Made by a program: the position numbers and the translations under genes
Shown here: one piece after another, positions 7,358 to 19,403 of the stretch
How positions within the stretch are numbered: the first letter of the stretch is position 1
How the letters are laid out: each line of letters begins with the position of its first letter
Source: Clostridia bacterium
Lineage (GTDB): Bacteria > Bacillota > Clostridia > Oscillospirales > QAKW01
Direction: 5' to 3'
Assembly (NCBI GenBank): GCA_017464525.1
Contig: JAFTZM010000041.1
Span: 76,435-140,434, forward strand
DNA length: 64,000 bases
Notes under the pieces: model-generated
The model's input: only the letters and a program-made list of their open reading frames with translations
Told to the model about the DNA's origin: nothing
The model's database searches: none

Positions 7358-7384
7358 TGTAACATAAAAAACAGATTATTGCAA
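7356..7384 (-). promoter_or_regulatory. Predicted topB promoter
   Basis: On the minus strand TTGCAA (7384-7379), a 17 bp spacer and TACAAT (7361-7356) point toward topB. The inverted-repeat element lies between this promoter and the gene, so the mRNA leader would be about 340 nt. Confidence 0.5.
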
Positions 7385-7411
7385 GCCCGGCAGGATCTTT
7401 CATTTTTTTAA

Positions 7412-7449
7412 AATTACCTATTGACAAAGTAGGTAATTAGTGTTACAAT
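7412..7449 (+). promoter_or_regulatory. Promoter with overlapping operator dyad, methionine transporter operon
   Basis: TTGACA (7421-7426), a 17 bp spacer and TACAAT (7444-7449) form a strong promoter. A perfect dyad with 9 bp arms, AATTACCTA and TAGGTAATT, separated by 9 bp, brackets the -35 hexamer (7412-7438). A repressor bound here would block RNA polymerase. Its identity is unknown. Confidence 0.7.
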
Positions 7450-7482
7450 ACAGCCAAACAACACGGAAAGGAGAACACAGCT

Positions 7483-7587
7483 ATGAAGAAGATCACCGCT
7501 ATGATGATGGAGATGTGCATGTGTGGCCGCATGTGCATGGCTTTTCATACGCCCATATCCGATATGTTCTCCGAAACCGAGATGTGA
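7483..7587 (+). CDS. Met/Cys-rich leader peptide of the methionine transporter operon
   Basis: A 34-codon open frame starts 9 bases after AAAGGAG, about 30 bp downstream of the promoter. Ten of its 34 residues are Met and three are Cys. The densest part is codons 7-19, which contain seven Met and three Cys codons. It lies ahead of a terminator-like hairpin and of metQNI. That arrangement is that of an attenuator leader peptide sensing charged tRNA-Met or tRNA-Cys. No SAM-I riboswitch or T-box sequence was recognised in the leader. The function is inferred from codon content and position. Confidence 0.6.
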   Translation: MKKITAMMMEMCMCGRMCMAFHTPISDMFSETEM

Positions 7588-7610
7588 TCCGCATAAATTG
7601 CCGCGGAATC
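7586..7610 (+). promoter_or_regulatory. Hairpin just after the leader peptide stop
   Basis: GATCCGC pairs imperfectly with GCGGAATC directly after the leader stop codon. It is placed where a pause or anti-terminator stem would compete with the following terminator. The competing fold is not established. Confidence 0.3.
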
Positions 7611-7622
7611 TATTATGCTTTT

Positions 7623-7661
7623 AACCGGGAGACCTGATCGGAGCCTCCTGGTTATTTTTTT
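7623..7661 (+). terminator. Attenuator-like terminator before metQ
   Basis: AACCGGGAG pairs with CTCCTGGTT (nine pairs, one G-U) and a run of seven T follows. It lies between the leader peptide and the structural genes, so transcription must read through to express metQNI. Confidence 0.65.
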
Positions 7662-7676
7662 AAGAAAGGTATTACC

Positions 7677-7733
7677 ATGATACGATTAATTGAAGAGCTC
7701 GTACGGGCCAATTTTCGGTTCGGCCGAACGTGA
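7677..7733 (+). CDS. Second small leader ORF, 18 residues
   Basis: An 18-codon frame (MIRLIEELVRANFRFGRT) begins six bases after AAAGGT, between the attenuator and metQ. It has four Arg codons and no Met after the start. It may be a second leader peptide or only a translated spacer. Support is the ribosome-binding site and the operon position; a non-coding reading is quite possible. Confidence 0.3.
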   Translation: MIRLIEELVRANFRFGRT

Positions 7734-7793
7734 AGGTTCCTTATTATTTCACCCATTTTAATTTTAAATTATTTTTGAAAGGAATTTACTCTC

Positions 7794-8639
7794 ATGAAAA
7801 AGTTTATTACATTTGCGCTTATCGCTGTTCTTACTCTTGTTTCCCTGACTGCCTGCGGCAGTTCCGATCAGATCACCATTGCCATCCCCAACGACACCAC
7901 CAACGAAGCCCGTGCCCTGCTCCTGCTGGAGGATCTGGGGCTGATCACCCTGAAGGAGGGTGCCAGCATTACCGCCACCCCGCTGGATGTTGCTGAAAAT
8001 CCCTACAATATTACTTTTAAAGAAGTGGAAGCTGCCCAGCTGCCCAACGTTTTGCAGGATGTGGATTATGCGGTGATCAATTCCAACTACGCCATTGAAG
8101 CCGATCTGAATCCCACCAAGGATGCCCTTGGCATTGAAGGCTCTGCCTCTGCCTACGGTAACATCCTTGCTGTGAAGGAAGGCAACGAAAACACCGATCT
8201 CATCAAAGCCCTCAAGGCCGCCCTGGAAAGCAAGCAGGTAGCTGATTTTATCGCAGAGGAATATGACGGTGCTGTAGTATCTGTGGTAGACAACACCACC
8301 GACGGCTATGATGCCTCCCTGGACTACGCCGCTCTGGCCGGCAAGACGGTCACCGTTGCTGCCTCCCCCACTCCCCATGCAGAGATCCTGGGTGTAGTAA
8401 AGACCATCCTGGCCGCCAAGAGCATCACCCTGGACATCAAGGAATTTACTGATTATGTGCAGCCCAACAATGTGGTGGAAAGCGGCGAGATCGATGCCAA
8501 CTACTTCCAGCACATCCCCTATCTGGATGATTTCAATGCTGAAAACGGCACCCATCTGGTTTCTGTTTCTGCTATCCATGTGGAGCCCTTGGGCATCTAC
8601 GGCGGCAAGCAGACCTCTCTGGATGCCATCAAAAAATAA
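7794..8639 (+). CDS. metQ: Methionine-binding lipoprotein MetQ, circularly permuted
   Basis: A 281-residue lipoprotein: signal peptide 1-20, lipobox LTAC with C21. It has every hallmark of MetQ/NlpA, but in swapped order. Residues 26-165 (ITIAIPNDTTNEARALLLL to GAVVSVV) match the second half of ordinary MetQ. Residues 184-281 (KTVTVAASPTPHAEIL, EFTDYVQPN, VEPLGIYGGKQTSLDAIKK) match the first half. An 18-residue linker (166-183) joins the old C- and N-termini. The new ends fall at the usual junction between SLDELK and the IPND strand. It should still fold as a two-lobe binding protein delivering methionine to MetNI. Confidence 0.85.
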   Translation: MKKFITFALIAVLTLVSLTACGSSDQITIAIPNDTTNEARALLLLEDLGLITLKEGASITATPLDVAENPYNITFKEVEAAQLPNVLQDVDYAVINSNYAIEADLNPTKDALGIEGSASAYGNILAVKEGNENTDLIKALKAALESKQVADFIAEEYDGAVVSVVDNTTDGYDASLDYAALAGKTVTVAASPTPHAEILGVVKTILAAKSITLDIKEFTDYVQPNNVVESGEIDANYFQHIPYLDDFNAENGTHLVSVSAIHVEPLGIYGGKQTSLDAIKK

Positions 8640-8658: not shown

Positions 8659-9678
8659 ATGATGATCGAGATCAGGAATATTTCAAAAACCTTTCACACG
8701 GCCGACGGTTCTGTAGAAGCCCTGAAAAATGTGTCGATCTCCATTCCGGACGGGGACATCTTCGGCATTATCGGCATGAGCGGTGCGGGAAAAAGCACCC
8801 TGGTGCGATGTATTAATCTGCTGGAGCGCCCCACCGAAGGGAGCATTGAGATCAACGGCGTGGACCTCTGCAAGCTTTCCGAAGGGGAGCTACGGAAGGT
8901 ACGCCGGGAGATCACCATGATCTTTCAGGGCTTCAATCTGCTGATGCAGCGGAACTGTCTGAAAAACGTCTGCTTCCCCCTGGAGCTGGCGGGCAAAAGC
9001 CGGGCCGAGGCCAAAAAAAGAGCCCTGGAGCTGCTGGATATCGTGGGGCTGAAGGATAAAGCCAAGGCTTATCCGGCGCAGCTTTCCGGCGGCCAGCAGC
9101 AGCGGGTGGCCATCGCCCGAGCCCTGGCTACCGACCCCAAGGTGCTGCTTTGCGATGAAGCAACCAGCGCCCTGGATCCCACCACCACCAACTCCATTCT
9201 GGAGCTGATCCGCAGCATCAATGAAAAGCTCGGCATCACCGTGATCATCATTACCCACCAGATGAGTGTGGTAGAAAGTGTCTGCCGGCACGTTGCCATT
9301 CTGGACGACGGCACCGTTGCAGAGCAGGGGGCGGTGGCAGAGGTGTTCTCCCACCCCAAATCCCCTGCCGCCCGGCGGCTGGTATTCCCCGAAGGGATCA
9401 GCGACAGCCCGGTGGTCAGCGAAGCGGGAGAGCGGCTGATCCGTGTAGTATTCAACGGTGCGGCAGCCGCCGGCTCCCCGCTGATCGCCAGAATGGCAGT
9501 GGAAAAGGGGATCGAAGCCAATATCGCCTATGCCTCCACCAAAAGCATCGGCGGCAAGGCTTACGGCTCCATGCTTCTGGGGATTCCCGGGGGCAGCGAG
9601 ACGGTGCGTGCCGCCATTGACTATATGACCCAGACCCCAGACGTACTGGCAGAGGAGGTGACCCCCCATGCTGAATGA
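8659..9678 (+). CDS. metN: Methionine ABC transporter ATP-binding protein
   Basis: A 339-residue cytoplasmic ATPase. Walker A is at 39-47 (GMSGAGKST), the signature LSGGQQQR at 142-149, and Walker B with catalytic Glu in LLCDEATSALD. Residues about 260-335 form the C-terminal NIL domain, which in MetN binds methionine and causes trans-inhibition of uptake. It follows metQ by 19 bp and overlaps metI by 11 bp. Two ATG codons in tandem (8659 and 8662) could each start it. Confidence 0.95.
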   Translation: MMIEIRNISKTFHTADGSVEALKNVSISIPDGDIFGIIGMSGAGKSTLVRCINLLERPTEGSIEINGVDLCKLSEGELRKVRREITMIFQGFNLLMQRNCLKNVCFPLELAGKSRAEAKKRALELLDIVGLKDKAKAYPAQLSGGQQQRVAIARALATDPKVLLCDEATSALDPTTTNSILELIRSINEKLGITVIIITHQMSVVESVCRHVAILDDGTVAEQGAVAEVFSHPKSPAARRLVFPEGISDSPVVSEAGERLIRVVFNGAAAAGSPLIARMAVEKGIEANIAYASTKSIGGKAYGSMLLGIPGGSETVRAAIDYMTQTPDVLAEEVTPHAE

Positions 9679-10378
9679 TCTTTTTTCCCCCGAGACCCTC
9701 AGTGAGGCCTGGCGCATCATCCAAGCGGAATTTCTCACCGCGGTGTGGGAAACGGTCTATGTGACCCTGCTGGCTACTGCCTTTTCCATTATTATCGGCC
9801 TGCCCTTAGGGGTATTGCTGGTGGCCGGGGAAAAGAACGGTGTTCTGCCGCTGCCCTCCTGGCTGCTGCAGACCCTGAATATTCTGATCAATCTGCTGCG
9901 TTCGGTTCCCTTTTTGATCTTAATGATCCTGGTCTTCCCCCTGACCCGATTCGTGGTGGGGACGGTCGTGGGAACCACCGCCTCCATTGTTCCGCTGGTG
10001 ATCGCCGCCTTTCCCTTTGTAGCCAGGCTGGCGGAAAGCAGCCTCAGAGAGGTGAGCCCCAACACCGTGGAAATGGCCCAGAGCATGGGTGCTTCTCCCC
10101 TGCAGATCATTGTAAAGGTGATGATCCCGGAGAGTATTCCCTCTCTGATCTCCAACGCCACCATTGCCATTACCACCATTCTGGGCTATTCGGCCATGAG
10201 CGGCATCATCGGCGGCGGGGGCTTGGGCAAGATCGCCATCAACTACGGCTATTACCGCTATAAATACCTGATCATGCTTGCTGCTGTTGTGCTGCTGATC
10301 CTTCTGGTGCAGATCTTCCAGAGCGTGGGCACACGCCTGGCGGCAAGGCTGGATAAACGGCTGAAAAGGAAAGGATGA
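9668..10378 (+). CDS. metI: Methionine ABC transporter permease
   Basis: A 236-residue permease with about five to six membrane helices. The EAA-type loop, which contacts MetN, lies around ETVEMAQ-SMGASPLQIIVKV. Together with the upstream metQ and metN it forms a complete methionine importer. It begins inside the 3' end of metN, indicating coupled translation. Confidence 0.95.
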   Translation: MLNDLFSPETLSEAWRIIQAEFLTAVWETVYVTLLATAFSIIIGLPLGVLLVAGEKNGVLPLPSWLLQTLNILINLLRSVPFLILMILVFPLTRFVVGTVVGTTASIVPLVIAAFPFVARLAESSLREVSPNTVEMAQSMGASPLQIIVKVMIPESIPSLISNATIAITTILGYSAMSGIIGGGGLGKIAINYGYYRYKYLIMLAAVVLLILLVQIFQSVGTRLAARLDKRLKRKG

Positions 10379-10384
10379 TCGTAC

Positions 10385-10942
10385 ATGATCCCAACAAGAG
10401 AGGAAGCCTTCGCCCTACTGAAGGAATATAATCAAGAGCCCTTCCACATCAAGCACGCCCTCACGGTAGAGGGTGTCATGCGCTACTTTGCCCGGGAGCT
10501 GGGCTACGGCGAGGAAGAGGAATTCTGGGGCATTGTGGGGCTGCTCCACGACCTGGATTTTGAGCAATTCCCGGATCAGCACTGTATTAAGGAGCAGCAG
10601 CTGCTGCGGGAGCGGGGCATCGACGAACGGATCGTTCACGCCACCGCCAGCCATGGCTACGCCCTGACGGTGGATATCGCCCCGGAGCACGAAATGGAAA
10701 AGGTGCTTTATGCGGTGGACGAGCTGACCGGGCTGATCGGGGCAGTGGCCCTCATGCGGCCCTCCAAAAGTGTTGCCGATCTGGAGCTGAAATCGGTAAA
10801 GAAGAAATATAAAAGCACCGGATTTGCGGCAGGCTGCTCCCGAGAGGTCATCCAACGGGGCGCCGATCTGCTGGGCTGGCCCTTGGATGATCTAATCTCC
10901 CGCACCATTCTGGCCATGCGGGCTACTGATATTGTTGATTAA
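10385..10942 (+). CDS. HD-domain phosphohydrolase
   Basis: A 185-residue protein with the HD motif set: H in FHIKHALTVE, the HD pair in GLLHDLDFE, a later His in ATASHGYA and the Asp in YAVDELTGL. It belongs to the family of small HDIG hydrolases often annotated only as HD-domain proteins. Substrates in the family include nucleotides. It follows metI by 6 bp and ends at the operon terminator, so it is co-transcribed with the methionine importer. A role in methionine or SAM salvage is possible but unproven. Confidence 0.8.
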   Translation: MIPTREEAFALLKEYNQEPFHIKHALTVEGVMRYFARELGYGEEEEFWGIVGLLHDLDFEQFPDQHCIKEQQLLRERGIDERIVHATASHGYALTVDIAPEHEMEKVLYAVDELTGLIGAVALMRPSKSVADLELKSVKKKYKSTGFAAGCSREVIQRGADLLGWPLDDLISRTILAMRATDIVD

Positions 10943-11939: not shown

Positions 11940-14900
11940 ATGAAACGCGCACTATCCCTTACTGTGGCGATCGTAATGCTGCTCAGTTCTCTGGTGTTTG
12001 CACCGGCAGCCATTGCAGCAGACGATCCTGTTGTTTCGCGGTTTGTTGTGGTTTCGGATATCCATACCAACCCGACGTCCACCAAAACCACCATCGACCG
12101 CCTTCCCAAGGTATTCGAAACGGCCTATGCCTATGCCGAAACGCAGGGCGGCAATATCGATGCCTTTGTCTTCAACGGCGATAGCATCAACGGAAACGAG
12201 ACCGCTGCCGGCTACACCAATGAAGACGAAATGGCGCTCTTCCTCGCCGGTGTTCGTGATAACGTGAAGAACGGCTCCAAGGTCCTGCTGGCCATGGCCC
12301 GTACCCACGATATCTACGACGGCGACGGAAACATCTTCTATATGCAGGAAGCCGAGCTGAATGCTCTGATCAAAGAGCACCTTGGCAATGACGGTAGCAT
12401 CATCCCCACCGCCGATTGGGGCTACGGCCCGCACCTGAATTATGTTTCCGGTGTTCCGGTGATTACCCTTTCCAACGATATGGGCAACGGCAACGATGTG
12501 ACCGCCGAGGACGACGGCAACACCGGGAACGACGATAATGCCGATAACAGCTACCACGATTGCGAAGACTGGCTGGACACTCAGCTGGCCGCATTGGTAG
12601 CCGAAAATGCTGAGCGCCCCATCTTTGTGGTATTCCATTACCCCGAGGTGGGCAAGCTGGGCTTGACCCAGCGCTGGGGCCAGAACAGCCTGCGGGACAC
12701 CCTGAATAAGTATCCTCAGGTCATTACCATGAACGCCCATGTGCACTGGGATCCCCGCCTTTCCGACTCCATCACTCAGGATCTGTTCACCGAAGTATAT
12801 GACGGTGCCGTCCGCGACACCGGCGGCCCCAATGCCACCTCCGTGTCCGGCGGCAGTTCCCCTATCGTATCCTACTCTATGATCGAGGTCACCGAGTCCG
12901 GTGCGGTTACTATTAAATATATCGATCCCGACACCGGCGATTTCCTGCTGGAGGCCAACGGCTCCGGCGAGGTGCTGGAGTATTCCATCCCCAAGGCATG
13001 GGATAAGAGCACCTATCTCTACACCGACGAAGCAAAATTCGCCACCGAGAAGGCCACCTTCGCCGCCGATGCTTCCATCAAGCTGGAAAACGGCACCCTG
13101 ACCTTTGACCGGGCCGATTCGGAGCACCCCATCATCCGTTACAGAGTGGATGTTTCCAATGGCACCACCACCAAGACCCAGTATGTGTTCTCCGAGCTTT
13201 ATAACAAGGTACTTCCCGAGACCTATTCCACCACCCTGCAGCTCAAGACCGGCGTGGAATATACCATTACCGTCACCGCCATCGACGGCATCTACCGGGA
13301 ATCTGCCAATACCCTGGTACTGACCGGTAATGTCAACGATCCGGAAAAGGTTCTCACCGGCTCTGCCACCGCTGTGGTGGAAAAGACCTACGGCGAAAAC
13401 GGAGAAAAGGGCGAGATCGATTACCCGGATTTCAAGACCTACGCCACTAACATCGATGTCGAAAACATCACCAACTGGGGCATCAGTGATATCGAGGACC
13501 TGAAGGCCTGGTCCGAGTTCAGTAAGGTCAACAGCTGCACCGGCCTCACCTTCCATCTGGAAAACGATATCGACATGAAGGATCAGATCTTCGGGATGAT
13601 CGGCTCCCTTTATGTTCCCTTCAAGGGTACCTTTGACGGCCACCTGCACACCCTCTCCAATCTGCTGATCGACGATGTCAGTGCTATGGGTACCGGCTTC
13701 TTCGTTTACACCCTGGACGCGGAGATCCGCAACTTCGGTATCGAGAGCGGTGTGGTAAAGGGTCATAGCTCCAACCGGAAATATGAGAATGCCGGCAGCT
13801 ATAACGCCGCCACTAACGCGAAGAGAAACCCCTTCATTGATGTCATCGGCGTGGGTGCCATTGCCGGCCGTGCCGATAACACCACCTTCACCCATGTATG
13901 GAACGGTGCCGATGTCACCTTCCGGGATGGGCATATGACCGGTCTCGGCATCAGCAACCCCTGCTATGCCGGTCTGGTCGGACGTGCGCAGCTCAGCTGT
14001 AACTTTGTGGGCTGCTACAATACCGGTGATGTTCACGGTCTGGACCGTGCCAGCGGTATCACCAACTGGGCGCAGAGCGGTGGCAACATCGCCCGGATCA
14101 GCAACTGCTTCAACTTGGGTAACATCACCTGCGAAGCCGGTTACGAAACCGAGGCCATCGGCCGCTTCAACACCGCAAGCAGCAGCGACCGCACCTATTT
14201 CAACTATAACAACTACTATCTGGCCGGCTCTGCCGACATTGCAAACAACCGTGCCAGCGATACCGGCTACATCGTAGCAGGTGCCGAGGAGCCCATTGCC
14301 CTCACCGCCGAGGAGGTTAAGACCGATCTGGCCAACCTGCTGAACGCAGGCCGCTTCACCGGCCTTTATGCAGACACCGCCACTTGGGCCACCGATGCAG
14401 ACGGCAACATCTACATTGCTTCGGTGGACGATACCGGTGCCAGCGATATCTACCCCTTCTCCACCTATGCTACCGATTCTACCCATACCTACTACTCCAT
14501 CAACTCTCTGGACGAGTTCAATGCCTTTGCCACCAAGTCCAAGAGCGATCAGTTTGCAGGCAAGGTCATCCTCCTGAATGTAGATCTGGATCTCAGCAGC
14601 ATCGAAGATTTCCAGATGATCGGTACCGACACCTACTCTTTCAAGGGTACCTTCGACGGTAAGGGCCACACCATCAGCAATATGGCCATCGCCACCGCCG
14701 GCGCTACCCGGGGTCTTTTCCGTGACATCGAGGGTACCGTCAAGAACTTCACCTTGAAGGATGCTTCGGTGGGTGCTACTCAGGATTGCGGTATGGTCTC
14801 TGCCAAAATCACCGGTGGCACCATCGAAAACGTCACTGTCAAGGGCGGTACCATGACCATTAGTTCCAACAACGACTTCGGCGGCATCGTCGGCACCACC

Positions 14901-17900
14901 GACGGAACCACCACCGCCACCGTCAAGAACTGTACGGTAGACGGTTTGACGATGAATGGCTCTTCCCGTCAGGGTCTGGGCGGCATCATCGGTAACGCAG
15001 CTTACATCACCGTAGACGGCTGTAAGGTCATTAACTGCACCATCAGCGGTAACCGCAATAACGGTCTTTTGGGCGGTTATGTTTACCACGGCAGCACCTT
15101 TAAAAACTGCATTACCTACGGCAACACCTTCCGCTCCAACTTCAATACATACGGTCTGGTCGGTCGCGGCGGCACCAAGAGCGGTACCGATAATCTTATC
15201 ACCGTGGAAAACTGCGTTTTCTACGACGAAACGATGACGACCACCACCATCACGAACAACACTTCTAATAACATTGCAAGAACCGAAAACTTTGTTCTCT
15301 TCCGCTTCAGCGACACCGAGAACATCGTAACCAACAATGTTTACACTGCATCCCCCGACGACTGCGACTATACCTCTGCAGATGTTATCCACACCAACGC
15401 CACCGAGCTGGCCGGCGGTAAGATCGCCTATGAGCTGGGCTGGACCATGAAGGACGGCTATGTGGCACTCCTCGCCAAGGGCGACGAAGCCACCCACCGC
15501 TACACCTATGTGATGGGCGAGACCACCGAGGTTCGCTACACCGATGCTGCCGGCACCGTCATCAACGGCGCACCCACCGTCACAGCCGAGGACTTCCTTG
15601 GCTGGAGTGTAAAGGACGATGCCAAGAGCGGCGACCTGGTCTACACCGCCGAATACGGCACCGAGGACACCGGCTCCTACCCCATCACCGAGCTTGTGAA
15701 TCGGCCCAAGGCCACCAAGTTCACCATCGCTACCCCCGAAGAGCTGTGCTATCTGGCCACCCTTTCCAAGACAAACACCTTTGAGGGCTACACCATTACC
15801 CTGCTCAACGATATCGATATGACCGGTGTGGAGAATTTCGAGATGATCGGCTCCGAAAGCTGCCGCTTCACCGCCAACTTCGACGGAGGAAACCACACGA
15901 TTTACAATGTGACTATCAGCAGTTCCGATACCTATGCCGGCTTCTTCTCCATGACCGGTGTAGACAAGACCAAAAATGTCACCATCAAGGATCTGACCAT
16001 TGAGGATGCAGCCATCACCGGCGGCGAATCCTCTGCCATCCTGATCGGTAAGGCTTACGGCGTGACCACGCTGGAAAATGTGAAGCTTCGCTACTCCTCC
16101 ATGGTTGGAAGCAAGTTTACCGTAGGCGGCTTCTTCGGTAAGCTGGATGCCAACACCGCCAGCTTCACCGTAAAGAACTGCGTAGCCGAAGGCTGCTATG
16201 TCAGCAATCTCTCTGCAGGCCAGCAGCAGGCCGGCCTCATCGTAGGCGGCAACCCCTATAATGTTATCGTTGAAAACTGCCTGTTGGTCAGCAACACCGT
16301 AGAATCCCACCGTCAGGTTGGTCTGATCGCTTCCTATGCCACCGCCAACATGAAGATCAACGGTGTGATCGCCTATGGCAACACTATCAACTGTAACTAC
16401 GACAGCGCCGGTATCCTTGGCCGCGGCAGCGGTGCCTTTGATGTGCAGAATCTGATTGCTTACAATAACAGCGGTCTGCGCAACAAGAGCGGAAGCGACG
16501 TCATCACCGCCAAGAACTCCACCGTATTCTGGATGCTGGGCCGCTACGATACCGATAACCCCACCCCCACCGGCTCCAACGTTTACATTGATGTGGAAAA
16601 CGACACTACCCTTTCTCCCGTCACGGTGACCACCGTCACCGACGAGCAGGTCAAGAGCGGTGAAGTAGCCTACCTGCTGGGTATGGCCATGGAAAACAAC
16701 AACATTGCCTTCCCCGACGCCGACACAAAGGCTGCTGTTAAGTACACCTACATTGTCAACGGCACGGTTGCCGCCACCCGCTACACCGACGGCGCCGGCA
16801 ACATGATTGGCACCGAGGCCTCCCTTCCCGAAGACTTCGACGAATGGACCGTCACCGAGGACGAGAACGGCGATAAGACCTTCTCCGTTGCCAACGAGTA
16901 CGATCCAGACGGCACCTACCCCATCTCCAAGATGGAGGCTTATCCCTTAGCGAAGAAATTCAGCGTCTCCACCGCCGAGGAATTCAAACTCTTTGCAGAT
17001 CTGGTGAACGCCGGCAAGATCGGCAGCGATATCACCATCCTGCAGACCGCCAACATCGACCTGAAGGATTACCCCAATGTGCAGGTTGGCTCCGGCCGCA
17101 GCACCGACGTATCCGCTATCGTGGCCTTTGAAGCCACCTACGACGGCCAGAACTACACCATCTCCAACTACTCCCTTACTAAGTCGGATGTAGGTCAAGG
17201 TCTCTTTAAGAACCTGATGGGTACCATTAAGAATCTGGTGATCGATAACGCCACCGTTTCCGTAGCCTCCCACAGCGGTATCGTGGCCGGTGAAACCTAC
17301 AGTGCCACCAACCTGATCGAAAATGTTCACATCCGCAACAGTACCATCACCGCCTCTGCCAGACGGGTCGCCTTCTTCGTTTACGGCTACAACACCTCCG
17401 GGGCCACCGTAAACATCAAGAACTGCACGGTTTCCGGCAGTACCATCAACTCCGGTACCACCGCCAATAACCCCGTCGGTCTGATCACTATCCGGGACGA
17501 GGTTGCAGGCTCTGTGATTGAAAACACCTATGCTTTCAACAACATCATCAACGTGCAGGCCACCGGCGTTGCCGTTTCCGGCATCGTGAGCGACGGCCGC
17601 CAGACCGTGATCACCAACTGCGGTGCCTTCAACAACACCTATACCGGCACCACTCCTTCGGCCATCTACGGCATCAATGGTACCACCGTTAAAACCGTCA
17701 CCATCAACAACTGCTACACCGATGAGGCCAAGCTGACCAACGCCACCTTCACCGGCAGCAACAACTACACCGGTGTGACCGACACCCAACTGGCAGACGG
17801 TTCCCTGGCCTACGCCTTGAAGAACGACACCGATACCAACTGGATCCAGAAGACCTATCCGCAGGTTGCAGTAGGTACGGCTGTTACCAAGCACACCTAT

Positions 17901-19403
17901 GTGGTGGACGGTGAGGAATACGCTCTGCGCTATACCGACAATACCGGCGCCGCCATCGGCACCGAAGTGGCTCTTCCCGAGGGTGCAACCCTCTGGCTGA
18001 CCGCCACTGAGGCTAACGGTGACAAGACCTTCACCACCGTCACCGCCTACGATAAGGACGGCACCTATCCCCTGGCCCAGTATGAGCTGTATCCCGATGC
18101 CCGCAAGTTCACCATCTCCACCGAAGCGGAGCTGAACCAGCTGGCCGCCCTCTCCAAGAGCAATAATTTCAGCGGTTATACCTTCACCCTCACCAATGAT
18201 ATCGACATGAGCAACACCGCAAACTTTGCCATGATCGGTGTGGGCGACAACAAAGACACCTGCTTCGCCGGCACCTTCGACGGCGCAGGCTACACCGTCA
18301 GCAACCTGAAGATGAATTCCACCGCTCAGGTAGGTATGTTCCTGCCCAAGAATGCCACCATCAAGAACTTCACCCTGAAGGATGCGGATGTACGCGGCGG
18401 CCGCTACAGCGGTATTGTGATCGCTTCTGCTTCCAATACCCACGTTTCGGACGTTCACATTGTTGGCGCATACTTCAACCCCAACGATGACATCCGTACC
18501 TACGGCGGTATTGCAGGCTATGTTTACAATGAAGCCCGCGGCGGCGGTCTCAGCACCTTTACCCGCTGCTCCGTTCAGGATAGCACCTTCGATTGCGCCA
18601 CCAACGGGGGCGTAGGTCTGCTGATCGGTGAGATGTGTGCAGGCACGGTGACCGATTGCTATGTCATCAACAACACCGTCTCTGCCCTCAACCGCAGCGG
18701 TCTGCTGATCGGCTACAGCTACGGCGGCACCATTCAGGGTTGCTTCACCTACGGCAACACCTTCACTGCAGAAACCGATGGCACCTCCTATCCCAGCGGC
18801 GTGGTTGTCGGCCAGGTGCAGACCTCTGCCACCACCGTGACCAACAGCGTATTCTGCGAAACTGATTGGGATGTCTACGGCTACATCGTCTCCGGCTCCA
18901 TCACCTTCACCAACTGCTACACCCTCTGCACCGCTGCCACCGCAGGCACGGTTTCCACCGCAGAGCAGCTGGCAAGCGGCGAGCTGGCCTGGAACACCGG
19001 TCTGGCTATGAAGAACGGCAAGCTGGCCCTGGCCACCGAGACCGATCGGGTCGTATACAAGCACGTCTACGAGGTGGATGCAGTAGAATATGCGGTTCGC
19101 TACACCGATTCCACCGGTGCCGTGATCGGCGAAGCTGTTGCCGATCCCACCAAGAAGAGCCACACCTTCCTGAATTGGGAACTGGCTGGCGGGGATGAAC
19201 GGCTGGAGCTCTATGCCGCACGGTTCGAGACCAATGGCGATCTGGATGGCGACGGCGCCGAAACCACCGCCGATGCCACCCTGCTGATGCAATATCTGGT
19301 AGGCTACGAGGTCGAGCTGGATCTCGCCGCCGCCGATATCAACAAAGACGGCAAGGTTTCCATCTTCGATGCAGTAAAACTGCTACAGTCCCTCTCTGCG
19401 TAA
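11940..19403 (+). CDS. Giant secreted metallophosphoesterase with five beta-repeat blocks and C-terminal dockerin
   Basis: A 2487-residue exported protein. Signal peptide 1-27. Residues about 33-310 form a calcineurin-like phosphoesterase: VVSDIHTN, FNGDSING, a degenerate third motif (RTHD in place of GNHD), VVFHYP, and NAHVHW near the end. Residues about 360-470 resemble a fibronectin-III module. Five homologous blocks of roughly 380-420 residues follow, starting near 515, 850, 1260, 1670 and 2055; each opens with a segment like FTLTNDIDM and FKGTFDGKGHTISN, typical of GLUG/beta-helix adhesins. Each block ends in a short RYTD-containing linker domain. The last 55 residues are a type I dockerin with two calcium loops (DLDGDGAETT and DINKDGKVSI). 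It probably docks to a cell-surface cohesin not encoded here. Confidence 0.85.
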   Translation: MKRALSLTVAIVMLLSSLVFAPAAIAADDPVVSRFVVVSDIHTNPTSTKTTIDRLPKVFETAYAYAETQGGNIDAFVFNGDSINGNETAAGYTNEDEMALFLAGVRDNVKNGSKVLLAMARTHDIYDGDGNIFYMQEAELNALIKEHLGNDGSIIPTADWGYGPHLNYVSGVPVITLSNDMGNGNDVTAEDDGNTGNDDNADNSYHDCEDWLDTQLAALVAENAERPIFVVFHYPEVGKLGLTQRWGQNSLRDTLNKYPQVITMNAHVHWDPRLSDSITQDLFTEVYDGAVRDTGGPNATSVSGGSSPIVSYSMIEVTESGAVTIKYIDPDTGDFLLEANGSGEVLEYSIPKAWDKSTYLYTDEAKFATEKATFAADASIKLENGTLTFDRADSEHPIIRYRVDVSNGTTTKTQYVFSELYNKVLPETYSTTLQLKTGVEYTITVTAIDGIYRESANTLVLTGNVNDPEKVLTGSATAVVEKTYGENGEKGEIDYPDFKTYATNIDVENITNWGISDIEDLKAWSEFSKVNSCTGLTFHLENDIDMKDQIFGMIGSLYVPFKGTFDGHLHTLSNLLIDDVSAMGTGFFVYTLDAEIRNFGIESGVVKGHSSNRKYENAGSYNAATNAKRNPFIDVIGVGAIAGRADNTTFTHVWNGADVTFRDGHMTGLGISNPCYAGLVGRAQLSCNFVGCYNTGDVHGLDRASGITNWAQSGGNIARISNCFNLGNITCEAGYETEAIGRFNTASSSDRTYFNYNNYYLAGSADIANNRASDTGYIVAGAEEPIALTAEEVKTDLANLLNAGRFTGLYADTATWATDADGNIYIASVDDTGASDIYPFSTYATDSTHTYYSINSLDEFNAFATKSKSDQFAGKVILLNVDLDLSSIEDFQMIGTDTYSFKGTFDGKGHTISNMAIATAGATRGLFRDIEGTVKNFTLKDASVGATQDCGMVSAKITGGTIENVTVKGGTMTISSNNDFGGIVGTTDGTTTATVKNCTVDGLTMNGSSRQGLGGIIGNAAYITVDGCKVINCTISGNRNNGLLGGYVYHGSTFKNCITYGNTFRSNFNTYGLVGRGGTKSGTDNLITVENCVFYDETMTTTTITNNTSNNIARTENFVLFRFSDTENIVTNNVYTASPDDCDYTSADVIHTNATELAGGKIAYELGWTMKDGYVALLAKGDEATHRYTYVMGETTEVRYTDAAGTVINGAPTVTAEDFLGWSVKDDAKSGDLVYTAEYGTEDTGSYPITELVNRPKATKFTIATPEELCYLATLSKTNTFEGYTITLLNDIDMTGVENFEMIGSESCRFTANFDGGNHTIYNVTISSSDTYAGFFSMTGVDKTKNVTIKDLTIEDAAITGGESSAILIGKAYGVTTLENVKLRYSSMVGSKFTVGGFFGKLDANTASFTVKNCVAEGCYVSNLSAGQQQAGLIVGGNPYNVIVENCLLVSNTVESHRQVGLIASYATANMKINGVIAYGNTINCNYDSAGILGRGSGAFDVQNLIAYNNSGLRNKSGSDVITAKNSTVFWMLGRYDTDNPTPTGSNVYIDVENDTTLSPVTVTTVTDEQVKSGEVAYLLGMAMENNNIAFPDADTKAAVKYTYIVNGTVAATRYTDGAGNMIGTEASLPEDFDEWTVTEDENGDKTFSVANEYDPDGTYPISKMEAYPLAKKFSVSTAEEFKLFADLVNAGKIGSDITILQTANIDLKDYPNVQVGSGRSTDVSAIVAFEATYDGQNYTISNYSLTKSDVGQGLFKNLMGTIKNLVIDNATVSVASHSGIVAGETYSATNLIENVHIRNSTITASARRVAFFVYGYNTSGATVNIKNCTVSGSTINSGTTANNPVGLITIRDEVAGSVIENTYAFNNIINVQATGVAVSGIVSDGRQTVITNCGAFNNTYTGTTPSAIYGINGTTVKTVTINNCYTDEAKLTNATFTGSNNYTGVTDTQLADGSLAYALKNDTDTNWIQKTYPQVAVGTAVTKHTYVVDGEEYALRYTDNTGAAIGTEVALPEGATLWLTATEANGDKTFTTVTAYDKDGTYPLAQYELYPDARKFTISTEAELNQLAALSKSNNFSGYTFTLTNDIDMSNTANFAMIGVGDNKDTCFAGTFDGAGYTVSNLKMNSTAQVGMFLPKNATIKNFTLKDADVRGGRYSGIVIASASNTHVSDVHIVGAYFNPNDDIRTYGGIAGYVYNEARGGGLSTFTRCSVQDSTFDCATNGGVGLLIGEMCAGTVTDCYVINNTVSALNRSGLLIGYSYGGTIQGCFTYGNTFTAETDGTSYPSGVVVGQVQTSATTVTNSVFCETDWDVYGYIVSGSITFTNCYTLCTAATAGTVSTAEQLASGELAWNTGLAMKNGKLALATETDRVVYKHVYEVDAVEYAVRYTDSTGAVIGEAVADPTKKSHTFLNWELAGGDERLELYAARFETNGDLDGDGAETTADATLLMQYLVGYEVELDLAAADINKDGKVSIFDAVKLLQSLSA

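Follow-up and report, generated by a model that had tools for sequence, protein, structure and literature searches.

A putative ribosome-mediated attenuator built on methionine and cysteine codons upstream of metQNI in Clostridia

The metQNI genes of a gut-type bacterium of the class Clostridia are preceded by a short open reading frame crowded with Met and Cys codons, an intrinsic terminator and an antiterminator that covaries among homologs, and we consider it highly probable that these parts work together as a ribosome-mediated transcription attenuator responsive to methionine/cysteine supply. The window, that is, the whole stretch of DNA that was analysed, is 64,000 nucleotides long (contig JAFTZM010000041.1 of assembly GCA_017464525.1). 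The leader, its codon cluster, the terminator, the covarying antiterminator, their conservation and the gene context are established by sequence and comparison. An earlier note, made from the letters of this DNA, had claimed attenuation by a Met/Cys leader peptide, and that claim is largely supported by the homologous leaders, by the covariation, by recovery of further leaders with a model blind to the codons, by leaders found from gene context alone, and by a codon content that tracks the genes downstream. Taken as an attenuator, the device would be a new variant of the ribosome-mediated kind, one that reads Met and Cys codons.

The leader frame occupies positions 7483-7587 of the forward strand, which also carries the RNA features of the leader, the second short ORF and the genes of the operon, and encodes 34 amino acids, MKKITAMMMEMCMCGRMCMAFHTPISDMFSETEM*, with 10 Met and 3 Cys. 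Seven of the Met and the three Cys fall in codons 7-19 (7501-7539), the putative sensing cluster, and both counts agree with the earlier note. Of the window's 240 ORFs that start with ATG and encode 25-60 aa, the leader has the highest Met+Cys content by a wide margin (35%, with the next at 28%); searches of NCBIfam and Pfam returned no protein family match for the peptide. The strong ribosome site and promoter that had been described are a Shine-Dalgarno sequence (SD), AAAGGAGA, at 7467-7474 and a TTGACA-17-TACAAT promoter at 7421-7449, with 11 of 12 consensus matches and a TG preceding the -10 box. Likewise, the terminator said to lie ahead of metQNI is a hairpin at 7622-7654 followed by seven T (7655-7661), the whole spanning 7622-7661, with metQ beginning at 7794. 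The features of the earlier description were correct, but it gave no antiterminator and missed a second short ORF at 7677-7733. The genes downstream are metQ (7794-8639), a methionine ABC transporter substrate-binding lipoprotein (PF03180, E 1e-81; MetQ/NlpA models match below their NCBIfam cut-offs); metN (8659-9678), an ATP-binding subunit with a NIL domain (PF00005 and PF09383 above cut-off; the best NCBIfam model, TIGR02314, below); the permease gene metI (9668-10378); and a gene for an HD-domain protein (10385-10942; HDIG/HD matches just under cut-off) that probably closes the operon. Elsewhere in the window, 11940-19403 encodes a predicted protein of 2487 aa which, on a reading of its sequence, begins like a metallophosphoesterase, contains long repeats and ends in a dockerin-like C-terminus.

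The antiterminator is formed by arm 2 (TCCGATATGTTCTCC, 7558-7572), its 5′ half, which lies within the 3′ end of the leader ORF, and arm 3 (GGAGACCTGATCGGA, 7628-7642), which has as its partner either arm 2 or, in the terminator, arm 4. The duplex of arms 2 and 3 comes to -18.2 kcal/mol in the window, and the terminator hairpin to -15.2 kcal/mol. Between the antiterminator arms, right after the leader stop codon, a small hairpin (TCCGC..GCGGA, 7588-7607) has moderate support and is kept in only part of the homologs. Arm 2 has a further potential partner upstream, in that GGAGAACA (7470-7477), which overlaps the leader SD, is able to pair with TGTTCTCC (7565-7572); an SD:arm 2 helix is not supported as a universal arm 1, the SD being the main arm 2 partner in 14 of 28 untranslated leaders. 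The folding signal of the single sequence is weak (z -1.65) and the per-locus shuffles of arm 2 are mostly not significant; positional agreement and covariation among homologs were needed to support the pairing.

Homologous leaders were sought with an exact 20-base pattern for MMEMCM plus TG, run on a species-level genome collection, which matched at 36 places. Thirty of these were judged genuine on the strength of an SD, a short frame, a terminator and, nearly always, a sulfur gene; L064, L065, L070, L075, L081 and L091 are chance frames and were dropped. The genes that follow the genuine leaders are metQ(NI) or metY; cysK is often present too, and an Rrf2-type gene twice, while some leaders lie too close to a contig end for the downstream gene to be read. 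In all, about 30 MAGs or genomes, by title mostly uncultured gut or rumen Clostridia/Oscillospiraceae, have the leader ahead of metQNI or metY; its ORF and SD are present in 32 of 32 tabulated leaders. The source genome itself holds a second copy, on contig C30, that is 62% identical and lies ahead of metY, a polar amino acid ABC transporter and cysK, in that order. The leader is missing from several close metQNI operons (G006, G008 and G011). Alignment of homologous leaders, which the earlier note had proposed as a check, finds the Met/Cys codons conserved across about 30 genuine leaders, and an extra Met-Cys dipeptide, outside the part selected by the search, is kept in 23 of 25. Two observations on individual loci may be recorded here. 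One leader (L078) precedes, at about +231 from MMEM, what reads as a pyridoxal-kinase-like gene and not a sulfur gene; and the titles of L080 (Prevotella) and L089 (Phascolarctobacterium) conflict with the clostridial-type operons on these contigs, probably through misbinning.

The same check called for alternative hairpins, and the homologs have one, a covarying antiterminator that is mutually exclusive with the terminator. The terminator 5′ arm finds its best partner in the same place, just past the Met/Cys cluster, in nearly all leaders. On a plain MAFFT alignment 92.3% of antiterminator cells are paired, against 24-63% in slid controls, and in a slightly better register 94.0% against 22-57%, these figures covering 26-28 sequences. 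Changes on both sides are seen at 6 of 11 pairs, among them exchanges of CCGAT:ATCGG for CCAAC:GTTGG (L068), CCGCT:AGCGG (L078) and TCGAT:ATCGA (L086), and RNAalifold recovers the antiterminator unprompted. The terminator covaries as well (86% paired, both-side changes at 9 of 10 pairs). The relatives are not independent of one another, and the p-value given below and the shuffle counts thus overstate the certainty. Moreover, arm 2 is kept in two reading frames, in 21 and 7 leaders, in which it encodes FSDVFS or FPMCFL; since the same RNA is read in two frames, the conserved object is the RNA of arm 2 and not the peptide.

Since the first pattern had itself selected for MMEMCM, a covariance model, R1, was confined to the stretch that runs from arm 2 through the T tract, with the Met/Cys codons left out. 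R1 recovers new leaders that lack MMEMCM and are nonetheless rich in Met and Cys, both before metQ (G308, G079, G318, G305 and G365) and before metY (G472 and G550). Another leader, in G119 (L171), NDVCTRCCCCVCRSC, has 10 Cys and precedes the same polar amino acid transporter as follows metY on C30; the binding protein of the G119 transporter matches cystine and lysine/arginine families below their cut-offs, and we infer a transporter of the cystine type. Below about 29 bits the R1 matches are mostly noise, with the exception of L144 (22.6 bits), which is backed by its context; L131 (30.2 bits) and L156 (30.6 bits) are without a leader and look like chance matches. Two further leaders, found by metQ context alone (G104, MRHFVSTMMNMTAMRMMTMCMCRRA; G065, MGKDTAAAARMCMCRSSLHVLSVIK), both have Met/Cys clusters. 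In other genera, leaders of the MMCCRM type stand upstream of relatives of the G119 transporter (L185-L189) with a complete set of arm 2, arm 3 and terminator whose sequence is unrelated to that of the window, and these devices appear to be the same design in unrelated sequence. The median Met/(Met+Cys) share is 0.67 before metQ (n=21) and 0.55 before metY (n=14), with a Mann-Whitney p of 0.002 that is optimistic, as the leaders are related to one another. Codon content tracks the genes, being Met-rich before metQNI, mixed before metY and Cys-rich before the cystine-type transporter.

These results bear directly on the rival that survives best, namely that the product is a nascent-chain arrest peptide, in which the peptide sequence and not the codons would stall the ribosome on a metabolite such as methionine, SAM or sulfide. 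The retention of MMEMCM, including its Glu, in many leaders is unexplained by codon counting and would suit such a peptide, although it is partly a product of the search pattern. However, the leaders found without the pattern lose the motif and stay rich in Met and Cys (MNMTAMRMMTMCMC, MTMMEKMCMSM, NDVCTRCCCCVCRSC), the Met/Cys content shifts with the downstream gene, and the C-terminal end shows no conservation of residues and is translated in either of two frames. We regard arrest by the peptide as improbable, if the least improbable of the alternatives.

The attenuator that we favor would work as follows, leader translation, ribosome stalling and the direction of the response being steps that we infer. 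Transcription would start at the operator-covered promoter and a ribosome would translate the leader ORF. If charged tRNA-Met and/or tRNA-Cys ran short, the ribosome would stall within 7501-7539 and leave arm 2 free to take arm 3 once the latter is made; with arm 3 already held by arm 2 the terminator could not form, and metQNI would be transcribed. When supply is good, the ribosome would reach the stop codon and depart, and arm 2 would be covered, separated by the ribosome, or re-paired upstream, often with the leader SD, such that arm 3 and arm 4 would pair and transcription would stop at 7655-7661. The excess of Met codons before metQNI suggests that methionine may be the dominant signal at this locus. 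Folding estimates agree with this scheme for the stalled and the untranslated states, the median antiterminator probability being 0.82 with a ribosome on the cluster vs 0.12 for an untranslated leader, but the untranslated estimate stands out less clearly at this locus (0.69 against 0.99). The weakest step, as modeled, is shutdown when the ribosome waits at a stop codon far from arm 2. This codon lies up to 27 nt past arm 2 in long leaders, so that a ribosome there leaves arm 2 uncovered, and folding does not prevent the antiterminator (median 0.79); only in leaders with a near stop codon would the waiting ribosome block arm 2. Given the 0.79 estimate, the off state of long leaders would have to come from release of the ribosome and re-pairing of arm 2, or from a faster, local terminator. 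There is also a conceptual awkwardness in a Met-codon sensor, since methionine starvation lowers initiation everywhere and a shortage would act on initiation too.

The promoter carries what is probably a repressor operator, a perfect 9-9-9 inverted repeat, AATTACCTA-TTGACAAAG-TAGGTAATT, at 7412-7438, which overlaps the -35 box. A similar ACCTATTGACAA..TAGGT is found in many homologous promoters. Downstream of metY-cysK in L083 is an Rrf2-family gene (TIGR00738, IscR/CymR-like), and L085 has a gene of similar sequence in the same position; the two regulators are candidate binders of the ACCTA..TAGGT palindrome, and the operator in the window is possibly bound by a regulator of this family. The L083 regulator has a cysteine-rich stretch, CLQCNAEKCDRADTC. 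Could a repressor at this palindrome be the only control, with a constitutive terminator? The strong operator-like palindrome and the Rrf2-family genes of homologous operons would fit, but the codon cluster and the covarying antiterminator would be left unexplained, and leaders in which no simple operator pattern was found (e.g., L058, L063 and L069) keep both; we give this little credence. The attenuator is best read as layered under a probable operator of the Rrf2 type.

Methionine genes in Firmicutes are textbook cases of riboswitches and T-boxes. In agreement with the earlier note, neither an S-box nor a T-box is present in the window at Rfam gathering scores, with nothing relevant at E<=10 in 7380-7830. 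The window has no match to the SAM aptamer (RF00162) and none to the T-box model with its specifier stem and T-box sequence (RF00230), although the genome has 12 T-box matches elsewhere. The single S-box of the source genome (L176, G000:C22:10811-10916) precedes metK, so that a single genome would use separate devices to sense SAM and to sense Met/Cys supply. That the leader and terminator, with their alternative folds, are instead the architecture of a ligand-binding riboswitch to which the short ORF is coincidental or secondary is very unlikely, since conservation is confined to the codons and the pair of arms and does not extend to an aptamer core, Rfam gives no match, and the SD and ORF are kept throughout. 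Equally unlikely is a metal- or redox-binding mini-protein, or a copper-sensing uORF, with incidental RNA structures: the M-x-C-M patterns look like metal-binding motifs and a copper-responsive uORF is described in the literature (PMC9426467), but antiterminator and terminator covary, all identified downstream genes except one are sulfur amino acid genes, and the leader is without a protein family match.

Set against known systems, the attenuator has most in common with those of the trp, his, leu, phe and thr operons, with which it shares a short leader ORF with an SD, clustered cognate codons, an antiterminator arm that a stalled ribosome would free, an exclusive covarying antiterminator, an intrinsic terminator, and cognate transport or biosynthesis genes downstream. 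Unlike in those operons, the codons are Met and Cys, the hosts are Clostridia, which usually employ S-box and T-box RNAs, arm 2 lies within the ORF upstream of the stop codon and not after it, and the device comes combined with an operator and with another conserved short ORF. Leader peptides with Cys runs precede the cys operons of Mycobacterium and Propionibacterium, as well as cbs of Bifidobacterium; there, no conserved terminator hairpins were reported, a Rho-type mechanism was suggested, and no RNA element was reported for Met operons (PMC1262725). These too are short upstream ORFs with Cys codons before sulfur genes, but they are defined by a Cys run near the stop and no terminator, whereas here a Met-dominated Met/Cys cluster lies in mid-ORF and is joined to a covarying antiterminator and an intrinsic terminator. 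S-box and Cys-specific T-box control in Clostridium, e.g., C. perfringens (PMC2940859), also acts on methionine and cysteine genes by premature termination, but here there is no aptamer, specifier loop or T-box sequence, and the proposed sensing is by leader translation. The branched-chain operon of S. aureus, with its leucine-rich attenuator peptide (PMC5794164), is likewise a case of leader-peptide attenuation in a Firmicute, for a different amino acid and different genes. Rfam, NCBIfam and Pfam hold no such element as the one described here, and text searches of open-access papers found no description of a Met-codon leader-peptide attenuator, an absence that is weak evidence of novelty.

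The second short ORF, MIRLIEELVRANFRFGRT (7677-7733; SD AAGAAAGG at 7662-7669), stands between the terminator and metQ and belongs to a family, LxRxN[FY]R[FN]GRM[C/stop], that precedes metY or metQ in many Clostridia; its profile matched 31 of 291 class genomes at E<=0.01, some probably by chance, and further examples are L040, L041-L043, L056 and L094-L120. Of 44 distinct examples, 43 have CGA as the last Arg codon, whereas all six codons occur at the other two Arg positions. An ATG follows the last Arg codon in 43 of 44, the exception being the window copy (ACG), and the codon after CGA-ATG is usually TGT, TGC or TGA. Since it is the first ORF after the promoter in many operons that have no Met/Cys leader, the second ORF looks like an older layer into which the leader and terminator were inserted. 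Within it, CGAATGTG could pair with ACATTC near the metY start at some loci and not at others. The leads to its function are an arrest peptide, or a slow CGA codon beside Met. It is conceivable, if somewhat doubtful, that a single leader holds two translation-based sensors, the Met/Cys-codon attenuator and this more widespread second ORF with its near-invariant CGA-ATG, the latter then being perhaps a new arrest peptide or a codon-level sensor of sulfur amino acid status.

The analysis yields an account, open to testing, of how uncultured Clostridia of gut and rumen control their sulfur amino acids. It ties the Met:Cys codon content of a leader to the function of the gene downstream and brings to light a further conserved leader ORF ahead of metY and metQ. 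Working out how a Met-codon sensor operates would be informative; and, if the two-sensor reading were true, the second ORF would control metY and metQ across Clostridia.
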